NCBI GenBank assembly: GCA_018398995.1
Contig: CP073759.1
Span: forward strand, 186,001-250,000
DNA from: Methylophilaceae bacterium
GTDB taxonomy: Bacteria; Pseudomonadota; Gammaproteobacteria; Burkholderiales; Methylophilaceae
Length of the DNA stretch: 64,000 nt
Direction of reading: 5' to 3'
The translations under genes were made by a program, and so were the position numbers. The notes under the pieces are model-generated. The model was not told where the DNA came from. It made no database searches and saw only the letters and a program-made list of their open reading frames with translations. This document shows, piece after piece, positions 1,202 to 29,197 of the stretch (position 1 is its first letter; each line of letters opens with the position of its first letter).

Positions 1202-4200
1202 TTAGCGCTCGAACGCCTTTAAGATCTCTTTTATCAATTCAACGCGATGGTTGATATTGCCAAGCTGGACAGATATTCTTAATTTTTCGGGCCCGTTCAT
1301 GCGGCAGCGTTTATCGCGCTGTAACAAATGAATCAATTTCATAGGATCAATATCGGCTTTGGGATTAAATTGCAATTGAATGGCCGCATCCGAGGCATCA
1401 ATTTTGACAATACCCAACGGTTTTGCCGCAATACGTAAGCGATGGCAAGCCATGAGGGCTTCTCCAGGCTCGGGCAATAAACCGAAGCGGTCTATTAACT
1501 CTTCTTGCATTTCATCTAAGGCTTCATCATCGTCGCAATTGGCTAGGCGCTTATAAATGACTAAGCGTTCATGAATATCTGGGCAATAATTGGACGGCAA
1601 TAATGCTGGTGTATGTAAATTAATTTCGGTTGTGACACCCAATGGCGCATCTAAATCAGGCTCATTACCTGCTTTTAATTGTTTCACCGCGTGGTTGAGC
1701 ATATCCGAATAAAGGCTAAATCCAATCTCCTGCATTTCGCCACTTTGGCTATCACCTAGCAGCTCGCCAGCGCCACGAATTTCTAAATCATGCATGGCAA
1801 GATGAAAGCCAGCGCCCAAGTCTTCTAGTAATTGAATCGCATCTAAGCGTTTTTGTGCTTGTGGCGTGATTTTACGGTGCGGATCGGTTAATAAATAAGC
1901 ATACGCTTGGTGGTGACTGCGCCCTACACGTCCTCTTAATTGATGCAATTGCGCCAAACCAAACATATCGGCTTTATTCATGATAATCGTGTTGGCGGAT
2001 GGTACATCAATACCCGTTTCGATAATTGTGGTACACAGCAACAAATTAGACCGTTGCTGATAAAAATCGCGCATCACATATTCTAGCTCGCGCTCACGCA
2101 GCTGTCCGTGAGCAATCGCAATACGCGCTTCTGGCAAGATTTTTTCTAGTTTTTCTTTTTGCACAAAAATGGTGTCAACTTCATTATGTAAAAAATACAC
2201 CTGCCCGCCACGTTTAAACTCTCGCATGACTGCCTCGCGAATAATGCCGTCAGAATAATCAGTATGGAAGGTTTTAATGGATAAGCGCTTTTGCGGTGGC
2301 GTCGAAATTACCGAGAATTCGCGCAAGCCCTCCATCGCCATGCTAAGCGTGCGTGGAATCGGCGTTGCAGTCAGGGTTAATACATCCACTTCAGCGCGCA
2401 AGGCTTTCATTTGCTCTTTTTGGCGTACGCCAAAGCGATGTTCTTCATCCAAAATCGCCAAACCAAGGTTTTTAAATTTCACATCTTTTTGAATTAATCG
2501 ATGGGTACCAATCACAATATCTATCGTGCCATCGGCCAAACCTTTTAAAGCTTCCGCTTGTTCTTTTTTTGTTCTAAAACGTGAAATCTCGGCAATTTTA
2601 ATGGGCCAATCGGCAAAACGATCACAGAAGTTCTGATAATGTTGCTCTACCAATAATGTGGTTGGCACTAATACTGAAACTTGTCGTCCGCCCATCACCG
2701 CGACAAAAGCTGCGCGTAAGGCCACTTCGGTTTTGCCAAAGCCAACATCGCCACACACCAATCGATCCATTGGTCTGCCTGATTGCATATCGCCAATGAC
2801 CGCTTCAATAGCCGATAATTGGTCTGGTGTTTCTTCAAAAGGGAAGCCTTCACAAAACGCATCGTAATCTTTAAGGCTCAGTTTAAAAACATGTCCTTTA
2901 CGCGCGGCACGTTGTGCATATAAATTAAGTAACTCGGCCGCAGTGTCGCGGATTTGTTTTAATGCTTTTTTCTTGGCCTTTTCCCACTGACCACTACCCA
3001 AACGGTGCAAAGGCGCACTTTCTGGCGGCCCTCCGGAATAGCGCGAGATCAGAAATAACTGCGACACTGGCACATAGAGTTTATCATCGCCGTAATATTC
3101 TAAAAGCAAGAACTCAGTCTCACCTTCACCAAAATCAAGATTTTGTAAGCCTTTATAACGCCCAACACCATGCTGTTCATGCACCACAGGATCATTCATG
3201 CGCAGCTCAGATAGATCTTTGAGCATACCTTCGGTATTACGCGCCTTTTCTTTACTGCGGCGGCGTTGCTGACGCACAGTTGAGGCATACAATTCCGCCT
3301 CTGTAATCACAGCAACGTCACTCACAAAACCCGTGTGCAAACTTGAAACGCCCAACATAACTTCAGCATCACTGGCTTCAAATTCAGCCCATGTTTCACA
3401 GACCGGAATGACCAAACCATGTTCAGTGAATAGCTGCGAGATGGTTTCGCGACGACCCAAACTTTCCGCAACAATCAAAATACGGCTTTTTGCTTTTTTG
3501 ATAAATGCTTGTAATTTATGCAATGGCTGATCAGCACGCCTATCCACATCAACAGCAGGTAACGATTTTTTTGCATCAAGTTTGACATTAATCAGAGGGA
3601 ATTGATGGGCTTGTTTGAAGAAATTATCTACTTGCATTAATAAAACCGCAGGCGACAAGACTGGTCGTTCAACGTCATAAGCCAATAGTTTATGACGTGA
3701 ATTAGCTTCATACCAAAACGTTTGTGCGGCTTTATCTAAATCGCCGTGCGCGCAAAGCACTGACTGCTTGGGTAAGTAATCAAATATTGTTGCTGTTTCG
3801 GTAAAAAACAAAGGTAAATACCACTCAATGCCTCCCGTGGCATTACCTTTACTAACGTCTTTGTATATTTTTGCGCGTTGCGGATCGCCTTCAAACTGCT
3901 CTCGAAATTGACTTCTAAATAGCTCTATTCCCGCTTTATCTAAAGGAAACTCACGTGCTGGTAGCAATCTGATTTCTGGTACTGGATATAAACTACGCTG
4001 AGTATCAACATCAAACGTACGAATGGTCTCAATTTCATCATCAAATAAATCAATCCGATACGGCAACACACTACCCATTGGAAATAAATCTACCAAGCCA
4101 CCACGCACACTAAACTCACCAGGGCTAATCACTTGAGACACATGGTGATAGCCTGCTTGTGCACACTGCTCTCGCAACGCATCAATATCGAGCATCTGGC

Positions 4201-20831: not shown

Positions 20832-21824
20832 ATGCCGCAAGCGCAACTACCAATCATTCTAGACAAACTCATTTCACTTACCAGTGAAAGGGAATCTTAC
20901 GCGCTAGAATCAGCATTGGAGAAAACATTACGCGCAATTGCTAACATCAGCAACACAGTCGTATACAGCGCTGGCGATATCATCAGAGCAAAACACAATC
21001 ATATAAACAGCAAGCAACATTTCAGCGATTGTGGAGCAACGCCAATCGACATTGTAGATAGATTGTTTCATTGCCTAGAAACAGCCAAAGTGGCTAGTAT
21101 TCTGTTGGACGAGAATAAAAAGCTGACGCTGTTTCCCTTATTGTGCTCAAAACAGAACCCCATCGCAGTCATTAAAGTAGAAGAAACGATAGAGCCGCCA
21201 CACGATGACTTAACCGTAAAAATACTATCCATCTATCATAATTTTCTATCATTGATGCATGATAATGAGCGCGATACATTAACTGGCCTACTCAACAGAA
21301 AAACCTTTGATTCTAAAATTAATATCATCACCTCAGATATACAAAGCACTAGCCCCAATCAAGATAACAGCAACTTTACCTATTTAGCTATTTTTGATCT
21401 AGACCACTTCAAACGCATCAATGATATGTACGGACACCTCATTGGAGATGAAGTCTTATTACTGTTTTCACAACAAATGGAAAAAAACTTTAGAGATAAA
21501 GACCTATTATTTAGATTTGGTGGCGAAGAGTTTGTTGGCATATTTCAATGCCCGCATGATGACACCATGCTGCATATAATAGATCGATTCAGAACAAGCA
21601 TTGCTGATTTTCAGTTTCCGCAAGTAGGTAAAGTCACGATTAGTTGTGGCTTTACAAAAATCCACCCCTTTGACCTCTCCTCCCAAATGATCGATCGCGC
21701 AGATACTGCCCTATATCATGCAAAAAAACATGGCAGAAACGCTGTTTATCAACATGAGCAACTCGTTGCACTAGGGCTACTAGCAGCACCCCACACCAAC
21801 AGCGGTGATATCGAGCTATTTTAA
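20832..21824 (+). CDS. Diguanylate cyclase (GGDEF) with N-terminal GAF-like region
   Basis: A 330-residue protein predicted to make the second messenger cyclic di-GMP. The C-terminal GGDEF domain spans about residues 150-315, with FDLDHFKRINDMYGHLIGDE and the active-site GGEEF at residues 230-234. An inhibitory-site RxxD (RDKD, residues 221-224) lies five residues before it, so product feedback is likely. The N-terminal 140 residues look like a GAF-type sensor without membrane segments, so the protein is probably soluble. No good ribosome site precedes the ATG. The sigma-54 promoter region of the next gene lies downstream. Confidence 0.9.
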   Translation: MPQAQLPIILDKLISLTSERESYALESALEKTLRAIANISNTVVYSAGDIIRAKHNHINSKQHFSDCGATPIDIVDRLFHCLETAKVASILLDENKKLTLFPLLCSKQNPIAVIKVEETIEPPHDDLTVKILSIYHNFLSLMHDNERDTLTGLLNRKTFDSKINIITSDIQSTSPNQDNSNFTYLAIFDLDHFKRINDMYGHLIGDEVLLLFSQQMEKNFRDKDLLFRFGGEEFVGIFQCPHDDTMLHIIDRFRTSIADFQFPQVGKVTISCGFTKIHPFDLSSQMIDRADTALYHAKKHGRNAVYQHEQLVALGLLAAPHTNSGDIELF

Positions 21825-21892
21825 TCAATACCCACTCAAGCGCCACCAAAATATCAACATAATGTATTAACTTGTTACAAATTGGTTACAAA

Positions 21893-21940
21893 TTGGTTGT
21901 AATAAACCATTATTTCATAAAAATGGTTTATTTTAACCAA
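21893..21940. repeat. Long inverted repeat upstream of the sigma-54 promoter
   Basis: Arms TTGGTT plus AATAAACCAT on the left and ATGGTTTATT plus AACCAA on the right pair over 16 bases, with a 2-base near-match between the segments and a 12-base loop. It is centred about 125 bases upstream of the predicted start of the TonB-receptor transcript, where enhancer-binding activator sites usually lie. A second, overlapping repeat TTACAA-N5-TTGTAA occupies 21886-21902. It could instead terminate the diguanylate cyclase transcript, but no T run follows. Confidence 0.65.
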
Positions 21941-22014
21941 ACATGTATCATTAGCTGATCCAGCTATTTTTAGTTTTATCAAATAAAACAGTAGCTTATT
22001 AAACAATACATTAA

Positions 22015-22031
22015 CTGGCACAAAGCTTGCA
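22015..22031 (+). promoter_or_regulatory. Sigma-54 (RpoN) -24/-12 promoter
   Basis: CTGGCAC, then AAAGC, then TTGCA. GG and GC are exactly 10 bases apart, and the -24 TGGCAC and -12 TTGCA elements match the RpoN consensus at essentially every key position. Transcription would begin near 22042, 36 bases before the TonB-receptor ATG. Confidence 0.8.
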
Positions 22032-22077
22032 TTAAAGAGGGTTCCATAATTATTAAAGTAATAAAGGGAAATGAAAC

Positions 22078-24243
22078 ATGGGGAAACCATCAAAAAAAGT
22101 AATAGCTAGCGCCATTGCGCTTGCATTAAGCAGCAATGCTTATCATGCCATTGCTGAGGAAGCACAAGGCGAAACAATTGAAGCCGTCGTCGTTCAAGGC
22201 ATTTTGCCTGATCGTTTAGAATCAGTACCAGGTTCGTTTAGTGTGATTGACGAAAAAGAATTAGATGAGCGTCGTCCATTTTCAATTCAGGAGGCATTAA
22301 ATGCAACACCTGGCATTCATTTTGTGGGTGAAAACTCATTTGGTTTGGGTGTAAATATTGGTATACGCGGCTTAAATCCTCGTAGAACCTCTCGAACATT
22401 ATTATTAGAAGATGGTATGCCGTTGCAATTAGGTCCCTATGGTGATCCTTCAGCGCATTTTACAACTCCACTTGAAAGAGTGCAGCGTATTGAGGTGGTA
22501 AAAGGTTCAGGTCAAATTTTATACGGACCTCAAACCGTGGGTGGTATGATCAACTTCGTCACCAAGCCAGTACCTACTGATGGTATTGCCGGCAGTGTAT
22601 CGGCTATGGCAGGCAATAACGACTTCACTGGCTTACATGCCAATATCGGCATGGGTGGGGAACGTGGTGGCGTAATGATTGACGCAACTCAGAAAAAAGG
22701 TGATGGCATTCGTGATAACCATGACTTTGATATGCAAGATGTAATGATTAAAGGACAGCTCAACATTTCTGAACGTCAAACTTTAATGGCTAAAATTGGA
22801 TATTATGAAGAAGACTCTAATGTCTCTGAAACAGGCTTAGGCGCAGTAGAGTATGCTGAAGATAAATTTCAGGCACCCACAGGGAACAACGATAACTTTA
22901 AATACAGACGAACATCTTTGCAGCTTCAACATGTATTTGATTTCAGTGATACTACCAAGCTAACAACAAATGCTTATTATGTAGATGCATTACGATCATC
23001 ATTTAGACAAATAAATGATCCGGGTGGTTTAGGCGGTCGTTCAGTAATGGATCGCTGTACTGGCTTAGGTGTCGCTACCGAAGCAAATGCAGATCAGTGT
23101 GGTGGTCGTCACCGTCCGCGTAGTTATGATTACTTTGGCATCGAACCACGTCTAGACTTTAGTCACAATTTGTTTGGTATTCAAAGTGACGCTGTTGTAG
23201 GGTTTAGATATCATGAAGAAGGTAATAAACGCAGACAATTTCGTGACGGAGATCCACGCGCAAAAAGTCTAAACTGGGCAAAAGCAAATGGTTCTTTTAG
23301 AGAAGATATTCGTATTGATATTGAAGCAAAGTCATACTATGCGCAAAATACTTTTTATTTAAATGACTGGACTGTTACACCAGGTCTACGTGTTGAGGAT
23401 GTTAAAAGAACAATTAATGTCTTACAGGCTGAAGGTGACCCACAAGGATTTAGAAAAACAAATAACCAAACCATATGGTTGCCAGGATTAGGTGCCACAT
23501 GGAACGGCATTGCAAATACTACCGTATTTGCTGGTATTCATCGTGGATTTGCACCTCCACGCCCTTCTAGAGATATCGATTTTGACACTTTAACAGGACC
23601 TGATGCAATTGGCGAAGTAGATGCTGAGGAAAGTACCAATATGGAATTAGGTATACGCTCAAACTACTTTAATGGCGTAGCTTTTGAAGCAACTTTGTTT
23701 AATATTGACTTTGACGAGCTTGTTATTCAAGAGACAGCTGGCCGATTTGTAAACGCTGGCGAATCAAAACATACAGGTATTGAGCTGGCAGCTCGAATTG
23801 ATTTCGGTAAAATTTACAATACTGTACATAATTTTTACCTTCAAGGATCATATACAAACTTGTTTACAGCCAAATTCAATAAAAACACAGATCAAACAAC
23901 TAGTGGCAATCGTTTACCTTATGCCCCGCGTGATCTAGCCTCATTAAGTTTTGGTTATCAACATCCAGTTGGCTTAGACGCTCGTATTGGTGTGGATTAT
24001 GTAAGTCAACAGTTCGTGGATGCTGCCAATACGCGCGTTGAAACTTTAGATGGGCAACAAGGTACTATACCTTCTTATACTTTGCTAAACGCTACTGTGA
24101 ACTATAAACCAGTGGGATCTTCTACAAGCTACTTCTTAAGTGCATACAACTTAGCTGACAAAGAGTTCTTAATTAGTCGTGTTGATGGTAAAGTCGCTGG
24201 CCGTCCAAGACAGGTATTTGGTGGTGTAAGATACGATTTCTAA
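22078..24243 (+). CDS. TonB-dependent outer-membrane receptor, FecA-like
   Basis: A 721-residue outer-membrane active transporter. A signal peptide of about 26 residues ends near YHAIA. The plug domain covers roughly residues 45-165 with the SIQEALNATPGIHF segment and IEVVKGSGQILYGPQTVGG; a 22-strand barrel follows and ends in the aromatic residue of VRYDF. The closest recognisable group is the FecA/ferric-citrate-type receptors, but there is no N-terminal signalling domain and no FecIR pair nearby. The promoter is sigma-54 type and no Fur box is visible, unlike the second receptor at 27051-29114. The substrate is therefore uncertain; nitrogen-linked or other conditional uptake is possible. 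Confidence 0.88.
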   Translation: MGKPSKKVIASAIALALSSNAYHAIAEEAQGETIEAVVVQGILPDRLESVPGSFSVIDEKELDERRPFSIQEALNATPGIHFVGENSFGLGVNIGIRGLNPRRTSRTLLLEDGMPLQLGPYGDPSAHFTTPLERVQRIEVVKGSGQILYGPQTVGGMINFVTKPVPTDGIAGSVSAMAGNNDFTGLHANIGMGGERGGVMIDATQKKGDGIRDNHDFDMQDVMIKGQLNISERQTLMAKIGYYEEDSNVSETGLGAVEYAEDKFQAPTGNNDNFKYRRTSLQLQHVFDFSDTTKLTTNAYYVDALRSSFRQINDPGGLGGRSVMDRCTGLGVATEANADQCGGRHRPRSYDYFGIEPRLDFSHNLFGIQSDAVVGFRYHEEGNKRRQFRDGDPRAKSLNWAKANGSFREDIRIDIEAKSYYAQNTFYLNDWTVTPGLRVEDVKRTINVLQAEGDPQGFRKTNNQTIWLPGLGATWNGIANTTVFAGIHRGFAPPRPSRDIDFDTLTGPDAIGEVDAEESTNMELGIRSNYFNGVAFEATLFNIDFDELVIQETAGRFVNAGESKHTGIELAARIDFGKIYNTVHNFYLQGSYTNLFTAKFNKNTDQTTSGNRLPYAPRDLASLSFGYQHPVGLDARIGVDYVSQQFVDAANTRVETLDGQQGTIPSYTLLNATVNYKPVGSSTSYFLSAYNLADKEFLISRVDGKVAGRPRQVFGGVRYDF

Positions 24244-24275: not shown

Positions 24276-24310
24276 AAACAATTAAGGGGCTTTTAGCCCC
24301 TTAATTGTTT
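24276..24310. terminator. Strong terminator after the sigma-54-driven TonB receptor
   Basis: A perfect 15-bp stem, AAACAATTAAGGGGC and its complement, with a 5-base loop TTTTA. The A and T ends make it usable in both directions, for this receptor and possibly for amt on the other strand. Confidence 0.85.
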
Positions 24311-27050: not shown

Positions 27051-29114
27051 CTAGAATTTATAAGAGGCACCAACTTCCACATTACGCTCTATCCCAGGGA
27101 AAATACCGTCTGGGTTACGACTTGCAATATACTTTCTATCAGTAAGATTACGCACAGCGCCAAACAAAGACCAGTGTGTATCTACATCATAAAAAGCATT
27201 CAAATTAAAGGTTGTATAACTTGGAATTTCACCTAAACGACCATCCACACTTTGCAATCGCGTATTAGCGGCATCAACAAATTGTTCTGACACGTGATAC
27301 GCACCGATACTTGCTCTCAATTTACCAAGCTTGTAATTCAAATTAATATTACTGGTAAATTTTGGTGAGTATGGTATGCGATTACCATCTGGACCAAGGT
27401 TATTATTGGTAAACTCTGCAACTGGAATATAAGTAGCATTACCATCAATGCTCCAGCCACTATCAAACGCATAGCCTAGACCTAATTCCAATCCTTGATT
27501 AAGGGTTTTACCTCCATTGGCTAATGTCACACCTGCAGACAATGCCTGATTAACTATCTGGTTATCAAAATCCATATGAAAAACAGTTGCTTCATAAGTT
27601 AAACCACCAGTGTTACCACGAATACCAAGCTCATAATTAGTAGAACGTTCTGCATCTAATTGTTGATCAACACCTGCCCCAGAGATGGCACTTGCTACCA
27701 TTGCAGGTGAGAAACCTTTGAAAGCGCCTGCAAAGACTTGTGCTTCAGGAATGACCTGCCATGTGGCGCCGACGCCCGGTAAAAGCTCTGTATTTTTAGC
27801 AGTTCCAGATACGTTGGTTAGCTCATTTTTACGTTTTTGATCATAAGATTCAACACGTAGACCTGGTGTAATTGCTACTTTATCAGTTAATACAAATCTG
27901 TTTTGAGCATACAAAGCAACACCCTCAGCTGTCTGCGTTTCGTCACCAGTTAATTCACCTGACCTTGCTTCTGGATTGGTTCTCGACCGAACGGTTTTAT
28001 TGCTTAGCGTATCACGATGCACACGTATGCCAATCTCGGATTCATTTTCGATACCAAATGTGTCATGATTGATGAATAAACGGGAATCTAAACCAAACAT
28101 TTCAAATTCACGGTTACGGCCAGACATGCAGAAGCTACCTACTCCACAAGCAACAAAAGTGGTGCCATCTGCTGTTCTAGTTGCAACGTCACGACGCCAA
28201 AAGTCGCGCGTTAAATTACTCCAATAAACTAAGGTATTTAATTTTACATTATCATTAAATTCTAATTCGTGATTGATATCAAATGATTTGCGATCGGTAA
28301 TAAAGTAATCATTTGGTGCAGGATTTTTTGTTGGATTATTCTTAAACTCATTTGGTCTTAAACCAACATATGAAGTATTAATTTCATTGTCATAATAGGT
28401 AAACTTAGCACTTAGCCACTGGTTTTCACCAATTTGCAAGCCACCTTTTGCAACAATATCGGTTAAATCAAAACCATTATTTCTAAAGCCATCACCACGA
28501 GAAGTAATGGCACTAATACCACCAACAGCTTCTCCTGATGGCGAAGCACCACCAGCGTCAACACCAAATAATCTAAAGTTGTTGCTACCAATACGACTAG
28601 TCAATTTAACGCCATCTTCTGGCGCTTTAGTTTTGTAATTAATGACCCCGCCGATCGTGGTTGGACCATAACGCAAGCCTGCTGCTCCTTTAAGTACTTC
28701 GATACTTTGCATCCGTTCAATACGTGGGTTGTAGTAAGACTCATTCGCTAAAAATAAGCCTGGAGCAATTGGTACGCCATCTTCTAAGACCAATAGTTTT
28801 TGACTTCGATTTGGATTTAGTCCGCGTAACCCTATATTAGGGATAAACCCATATCCCTCCTCCTCTCGCACTACTACGCCAGGAACAGATTTTAGTGCAT
28901 CCTGCGTTGATAGCGGCTGCATAACTTCTAATTTTTCTTTTTTAATGACAGTAACAGAGCCTGGCACTTTAGCAAGCGCATCCACTGCCTCCCCGATAAT
29001 GTCGATTGTTGGCAAAACAATTTTTTTTGCGTCATCAGCAACTGCCATTTGATGCGTAGCTAACATCACAAATAACACTAAAGGTTTTACATACATTTTA
29101 TTATTCATATCCAT
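27051..29114 (-). CDS. TonB-dependent outer-membrane receptor, Fur-regulated
   Basis: A 687-residue outer-membrane transporter, presumably for a ferric siderophore or other iron chelate. A signal peptide of about 26 residues ends at MAVA/DD. The plug runs roughly from 35 to 155 with STQDALKSVPGVVV and IEVLKGAAGLRYGPTTIGG; a barrel follows and ends in the aromatic residue of VGASYKF. It resembles FecA-type receptors without the signalling extension. A promoter upstream has a perfect Fur box in its spacer, which strongly suggests iron repression. The other receptor in the window shares the fold but has a different type of promoter. Confidence 0.9.
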   Translation of the reverse strand: MDMNNKMYVKPLVLFVMLATHQMAVADDAKKIVLPTIDIIGEAVDALAKVPGSVTVIKKEKLEVMQPLSTQDALKSVPGVVVREEEGYGFIPNIGLRGLNPNRSQKLLVLEDGVPIAPGLFLANESYYNPRIERMQSIEVLKGAAGLRYGPTTIGGVINYKTKAPEDGVKLTSRIGSNNFRLFGVDAGGASPSGEAVGGISAITSRGDGFRNNGFDLTDIVAKGGLQIGENQWLSAKFTYYDNEINTSYVGLRPNEFKNNPTKNPAPNDYFITDRKSFDINHELEFNDNVKLNTLVYWSNLTRDFWRRDVATRTADGTTFVACGVGSFCMSGRNREFEMFGLDSRLFINHDTFGIENESEIGIRVHRDTLSNKTVRSRTNPEARSGELTGDETQTAEGVALYAQNRFVLTDKVAITPGLRVESYDQKRKNELTNVSGTAKNTELLPGVGATWQVIPEAQVFAGAFKGFSPAMVASAISGAGVDQQLDAERSTNYELGIRGNTGGLTYEATVFHMDFDNQIVNQALSAGVTLANGGKTLNQGLELGLGYAFDSGWSIDGNATYIPVAEFTNNNLGPDGNRIPYSPKFTSNINLNYKLGKLRASIGAYHVSEQFVDAANTRLQSVDGRLGEIPSYTTFNLNAFYDVDTHWSLFGAVRNLTDRKYIASRNPDGIFPGIERNVEVGASYKF

Positions 29115-29168
29115 CCCAGATAGTCTAATTAAAAGAAATTCTATTATTGCATTAATTTTGTAAATGCT

Positions 29169-29197
29169 ATTCTAGATGATAATCATTATCATTACAA
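29169..29197 (-). promoter_or_regulatory. Fur-regulated promoter of the second TonB receptor
   Basis: On the minus strand TTGTAA, exactly 17 bases, then TAGAAT. The spacer contains TGATAATGATTATCA (29177-29191), a perfect 7-1-7 Fur box. Fur binding here would block RNA polymerase directly. The predicted start is about 47 bases before the ATG. The box also lies upstream of the divergent hslO. Confidence 0.85.

Follow-up and report, generated by a model that had tools for sequence, protein, structure and literature searches.

The window, by which we mean the whole 64-kb stretch of DNA analyzed here, belongs to a genome consisting of a single contig of 2.03 Mb. At 22078 to 24243, on the + strand, it encodes a TonB-dependent receptor of 721 amino acids in which both the plug and the beta-barrel domain were recognized above cut-off (Pfam PF07715 and PF00593). 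Its profile matches were FecA-like and below the NCBIfam cut-offs; identity as the ferric citrate receptor FecA was not supported (244 bits against the NF041676 cut-off of 1100 bits). The gene is separated by an intergenic region of 253 bp from its upstream neighbor, a GGDEF gene (20832-21824), is followed by a terminator-like stem-loop (24285-24302, + strand; pattern scan only), and has amtB as convergent neighbor. Within the intergenic region, a pattern scan alone located a short stem followed by TTTTTAGTTT (21952-21966, + strand), a terminator-like structure that probably ends the GGDEF transcript. A second FecA-like TonB receptor gene lies at 27051 to 29114 on the - strand, with the Fur-box-like sequence AATGATAATGATTATCATC just upstream (about 29130-29180) and with neither a sigma-54 site nor a dyad of the kind described below in its upstream region. 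No Fur-box-like site was noticed before the receptor gene at 22078.

An earlier note on this DNA had placed a -24/-12 element of the RpoN consensus type at 22015 to 22031, which our analysis confirmed. The sequence found there, CTGGCACAAAGCTTGCA (+ strand), lies 63 bp before the receptor ATG, has the GG-N10-GC spacing with consensus flanks, and matched YTGGCACGN4TTGCW at 12 of 13 positions, the best score in the window; it was also the single match without mismatch to YTGGCACN5TTGCW. When the window was scanned with a matrix built only from promoters of relatives, in which the element occupies a similar position, it again ranked first, with 0.1 matches of equal score expected in 64 kb. On the + strand, a pattern scan between the upstream dyads and the start codon revealed no sigma-70-like promoter. 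The genome encodes rpoN (PF04552, E = 1.6e-68) and three proteins scoring more than 200 bits against the enhancer-binding domain PF00158. Taken together, these features strongly suggest that the element is a genuine sigma-54 promoter.

Upstream of the promoter lie two putative activator sites, tandem 16-bp palindromes of the form TGGTT-N6-AACCA, 30 bp apart. The distal dyad, TGGTTGTAATAAACCA (21894-21909), was the best match in the window to a dyad matrix likewise derived from relatives only (0 expected by chance), and the proximal dyad, TGGTTTATTTTAACCA (21924-21939), was the third best (0.35 expected); exact matches to TGGTTN6AACCA occur in the window at these two places only. Their centers precede the -12 GC by 127.5 and 97.5 bp. 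The 18-bp inverted repeat reported earlier at 21893 to 21940 does exist, its arms (21893-21910 and 21923-21940) pairing at 16 of 18 positions, but it arises because two such palindromes stand side by side, and the unit had been read in the wrong register. We therefore rejected AAACCAT-N12-ATGGTTT as the binding unit: the genome (2.03 Mb) has a single copy of it, and it is the 16-bp dyad that is conserved. The TTACAA-N5-TTGTAA repeat noted earlier at 21886 to 21902 is present and belongs to a direct repeat, TTACAAATTGG-TTACAAATTGG (21875-21896, read from the sequence), an extra half-site-like sequence that overlaps the first dyad.

Same-family genomes, among them named Methylophilus, Methylobacillus, and Methylotenera records, carry receptor orthologues about 60 to 77% identical to that of the window. 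Of 54 receptor homologues, 19 (our own and those of 18 relatives) are preceded by dyads together with a -24/-12 element, all of these from Methylophilaceae or from MAGs without a family name; the cultured Methylophilus methylotrophus (L084) has the same promoter. Thus, the check proposed earlier, conservation of repeat and promoter at the same place in close relatives, was borne out in 18 other Methylophilaceae-type loci, and sigma-54 control of this receptor from an enhancer-type site gains support from this co-conservation and from the presence of rpoN. The distance from the proximal dyad to the -12 element was mostly 80 to 120 bp among receptor promoters, and the dyad pattern was found in 15 of 22 Methylophilus-type genomes versus 0 of 22 for a reversed control. 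Before 20 of the 54 homologues a different palindrome, GGGA-N5-TCCC, stands instead, which is also found in Methyloversatilis, Zoogloea, Azonexus, and others; sigma-54 sites were absent from this class of orthologues, and the palindrome is perhaps bound by a LuxR-type regulator. The same palindrome precedes receptor orthologues and a MoxY-type kinase gene at loci L076, L077, L079, L080, L100, L106, L107, L113, and others. The receptor tree, on which L123 and L126 are poorly placed rows with very long branches, requires the sigma-54 label to change 8 times, and well-supported branches force at least 5 of these changes; control of the receptor therefore seems to have been exchanged repeatedly. 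One contig labeled as a Desulfobaccales MAG (L072) carries a receptor 77% identical to that of the window and is probably a mis-binned Methylophilaceae contig.

A complete sigma-54 activation domain is found in only three proteins of this genome: NtrC, PilR, and an NtrC-type response regulator whose gene lies at 1809847 to 1811259 of the chromosome, 1.6 Mb from the receptor in contig coordinates. The activator gene thus lies outside the window, as had been stated before. The third protein has the NtrC-type order of receiver (PF00072), AAA+ sigma-54 (PF00158), and Fis-type helix-turn-helix (PF02954) domains and scored below the NCBIfam equivalog cut-offs for AtoC (379 versus 714), PrsR (372 versus 503), and NtrC (359 versus 559). 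Its gene is preceded by dyads at 1809608 and 1809631 and by a -24/-12 element, TTGGAATGTATTTTGCT, at 1809728. It was through the 16-bp dyad that the gene was located. In relatives, the activator gene directly follows the gene of a different TonB receptor, which is first in the operon and has siderophore-type profile matches below cut-off; this receptor is absent from our genome, where tilS is the upstream neighbor. Dyads (consensus TGGTTGTATACAACCA) precede the activator operon in all 18 relatives with a readable upstream region, usually as 2 or 3 in tandem, most of them set about 22, 32, or 43 bp apart, which corresponds to roughly 2, 3, or 4 turns of the helix. The recognition helix, TRM-x-M/I-RYRM, is conserved. 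At the position of the GAFTGA loop the protein reads GAFTNA, and 20 orthologues read GAFTSA (9), GAFTNA (8), or GAFTGA (3). Because dyads stand at its own gene and the other activators can be eliminated (see below), the response regulator at 1809847 is likely, on strong grounds, to be the activator of the receptor promoter. Several observations count against our explanation, namely, that no kinase gene adjoins the activator gene, that the loop departs from GAFTGA in most orthologues, that the receptor in the activator operon is a different one, and that the -12 element of this operon in Methylobacillus-like genera is TTGA rather than TTGC. At loci L236, L243, L244, L246, L248, L251, and L253 the receptor-activator operon has TTGA or TTGT at this position. 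A GlrR-like activator adjoining the receptor at L074, L075, L096, and L119 was rejected as a candidate, as orthologues of it are lacking in this genome and in G023 and G042.

Across the whole genome, exact dyads numbered 8 versus 6 in the reversed control (21 versus 11 for a degenerate form), so that most exact dyads are attributable to chance; those at 3901, 7258, 433808, 701584, and 1269230 fall in or at genes, have no -24/-12 element at a suitable position, and were set aside. Outside the window, dyads in a plausible promoter context precede the activator gene, a MoxY-type kinase/LuxR-type regulator operon, and a PepSY protein gene. A dyad accompanies a -24/-12 element at three places in all, the receptor, the activator gene, and the kinase-regulator operon; the last, which lies beside a LanPepSY homologue, is preceded by the dyad TGGTTTAAATTAACCA (909028) and the -24/-12 element TTGGCACATAGGTTGCT (908948-908964). 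This homologue, a PepSY protein 47% identical to a LanPepSY-like protein of L075 and so named for the two PepSY domains it contains, its size, and its neighborhood, has two dyads upstream; a canonical -24/-12 element is absent there, which counts against our explanation. Elsewhere, at G000:C1:892176-894842 (L194), an OmpR-type two-component pair is flanked by two short PepSY-like proteins, possibly further metal-binding proteins.

In Methylophilus-type genomes, dyads also precede glycosyltransferase genes, tonB, fecI-fecR, a beta-propeller lipoprotein gene, and RNA-like transcripts. This wider set counts against a regulon devoted to lanthanides, and because of it the regulon may be broader and its cue more general. 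At L177 and L186 (Methylophilus type) the dyads lie upstream of fecI-fecR-like ECF sigma/anti-sigma genes, where a cascade from sigma-54 to an ECF factor is possible. At L189 (- strand from about 1410) and L193 (+ strand from about 1589), also of Methylophilus type, a dyad and the strong -24/-12 element ATGGCATGCTARTTGCA precede a conserved stretch, about 150 nt long, that ends in a terminator-like sequence and contains no open reading frame, possibly a new sigma-54-dependent small RNA; L171:1500-1775 resembles this stretch. An Rfam search of the RNA-like Methylophilus transcripts returned nothing above the gathering score.

As to function, receptor orthologues in relatives adjoin a histidine kinase/response regulator pair, MxaF/XoxF-like dehydrogenases, and LanPepSY; at L113 the genes run kinase, regulator, receptor, LanPepSY. 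The kinases and regulators beside these receptors were at best 45 to 53% and 58 to 63% identical, respectively, to the kinase-regulator pair of our genome. The only dehydrogenase of this genome above the family cut-off, and its only clear methanol dehydrogenase, is a XoxF with a DYD motif, which is of the lanthanide type. Genome context and shared regulatory sites thus tie the receptor of this XoxF-encoding genome to the genes of methanol dehydrogenase and LanPepSY. Published work describes LanPepSY as a lanthanide-binding protein and gives MxaY/MxaB-type systems a part in the lanthanide switch (PMC11845868; PMC12482762). From these links to the kinase-regulator pair, LanPepSY, and methanol dehydrogenases, we infer that the receptor would most plausibly serve lanthanide uptake and the regulon lanthanide acquisition, with less assurance than we attach to the promoter and its activator.

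The most serious rival keeps the sigma-54 promoter and the activator and lets the regulon serve a different metal or chelate (iron, copper, PQQ, or a siderophore-like compound); the methanol dehydrogenase genes would then be linked to it by neighborhood only. The FecA-like profile of the receptor, the dyads before fecI-fecR and tonB in Methylophilus, and the siderophore-type matches of the activator-operon receptor all speak for it, and we regard it as unlikely without dismissing it. Against it, many loci have MoxY/X, MxaF/XoxF, or LanPepSY next to the receptor, dyads stand at LanPepSY and the kinase operon in our own genome, and the Fur-box-like site of the window belongs to the second FecA-like receptor rather than to the one under sigma-54 control.

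The remaining alternatives concern the proteins that act at the promoter. The earlier note had suggested a nitrogen cue, and NtrC and NtrB are indeed encoded in the genome, with amtB as convergent neighbor of the receptor gene; yet TGCACC-N3/5-GGTGCA was not found in the window, the receptor dyad being TGGTT...AACCA, and the region before amtB has neither GCAC...GTGC nor a -24/-12 element. As the dyads moreover stand before the gene of another activator, control by NtrC under nitrogen limitation is highly improbable, and the suggested cue finds no support, the evidence pointing instead to a metal/methanol dehydrogenase regulon. In G116 (83% complete), NtrC is missing although the dyad is present. 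PilR, of which every dyad-bearing genome checked has an orthologue, is just as poor a candidate, given that no exact or degenerate dyad of this genome lies at pilSR and that the operon preceded by dyads in 18 of 18 relatives is that of another activator. Hardly more probable is a coincidental -24/-12 match at dyads that bind a LuxR/NarL-type or other regulator working with sigma-70. It would accord with the second orthologue class, whose GGGA-N5-TCCC dyads lack sigma-54 sites, and with the LuxR-type response regulator gene in the regulon; it is opposed by the finding that dyad and -24/-12 element occur together, similarly spaced, in 18 relatives and are also combined three times in our genome, by the low chance expectation for such an element in 64 kb, and by the lack of a sigma-70-like promoter on the + strand from the dyads to the start codon.

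We thus favor, as probable when taken as a whole, a sigma-54 regulon with the response regulator at 1809847 as activator and lanthanide acquisition as its most likely task. The regulator (1809847-1811259) would be phosphorylated by some kinase, bind the tandem TGGTT-N6-AACCA dyads, and loop to the -24/-12 element at 22015 to 22031, opening the promoter so that sigma-54 RNA polymerase could transcribe the receptor gene. It would also switch on its own gene and the MoxY/MoxX-type operon beside LanPepSY, and this small regulon would most likely supply XoxF with lanthanide taken up in free or chelated form, probably by induction at metal scarcity. The promoter, the dyads, their conservation, and regulon membership are strongly indicated by the sequences compared; the ligand and the cue are suggested more weakly. 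Slightly under an even chance is what we would give to the fuller claim, i.e., that this is a previously undescribed sigma-54 regulon under a Methylophilaceae response regulator usually encoded in a TonB receptor operon, that it controls lanthanide acquisition and feeds a MoxY/MoxX-type lanthanide switch, and that it and GGGA-N5-TCCC (perhaps LuxR-type) control have replaced each other at this receptor more than once. Among the open-access papers searched, we found none describing the dyad/sigma-54 regulon and none combining sigma-54 with lanthanides or with a methylotroph TonB receptor. A candidate activator gene, a DNA site, and a short target list make the sensing and import of lanthanides by methylotrophs directly testable in cultured Methylophilus or Methylobacillus. 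Control by Fur or ECF factors is the rule for metal-uptake receptors; if the proposal is true, a regulon of this kind is added to those of sigma-54.

Compared with known systems, the activator resembles NtrC, AtoC, and the PEP-CTERM regulator PrsR in its domains, and the arrangement of tandem dyads about 85 to 150 bp upstream of the -24/-12 element, with a site before the activator's own gene, is that of NtrC-type systems; it differs from these regulators in its scores below the equivalog cut-offs, the lack of an adjacent kinase, the GAFTNA/GAFTSA loop, and, in relatives, its operon with a TonB receptor. The receptor shares plug and barrel domains and profile matches with FecA-type siderophore receptors under Fur or ECF control; unlike them, it falls far below the FecA cut-off, has no noticed Fur-type box and no adjacent FecI partner, and has a sigma-54 promoter. 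LanA and LutH are the lanthanide TonB receptors of methanotrophs and Methylorubrum (PMC12482762). Our receptor is like them in being a TonB receptor of a methylotroph whose orthologues are associated with genes for methanol dehydrogenase and LanPepSY, and unlike them in its sigma-54 promoter. The MxaY/MxaB two-component system of methanol dehydrogenase control has been reviewed together with MxbDM, MxcQE, and PedS2/PedR2, none of which is described there as a sigma-54 activator (PMC11845868). Like MxaY/MxaB and MoxY/MoxX, our genome has a LapD_MoxY_N sensor kinase and a LuxR-type regulator, encoded here beside LanPepSY and, as orthologues, beside the receptor in relatives; unlike in those systems, the kinase-regulator operon of this genome is itself preceded by a dyad and a -24/-12 element.
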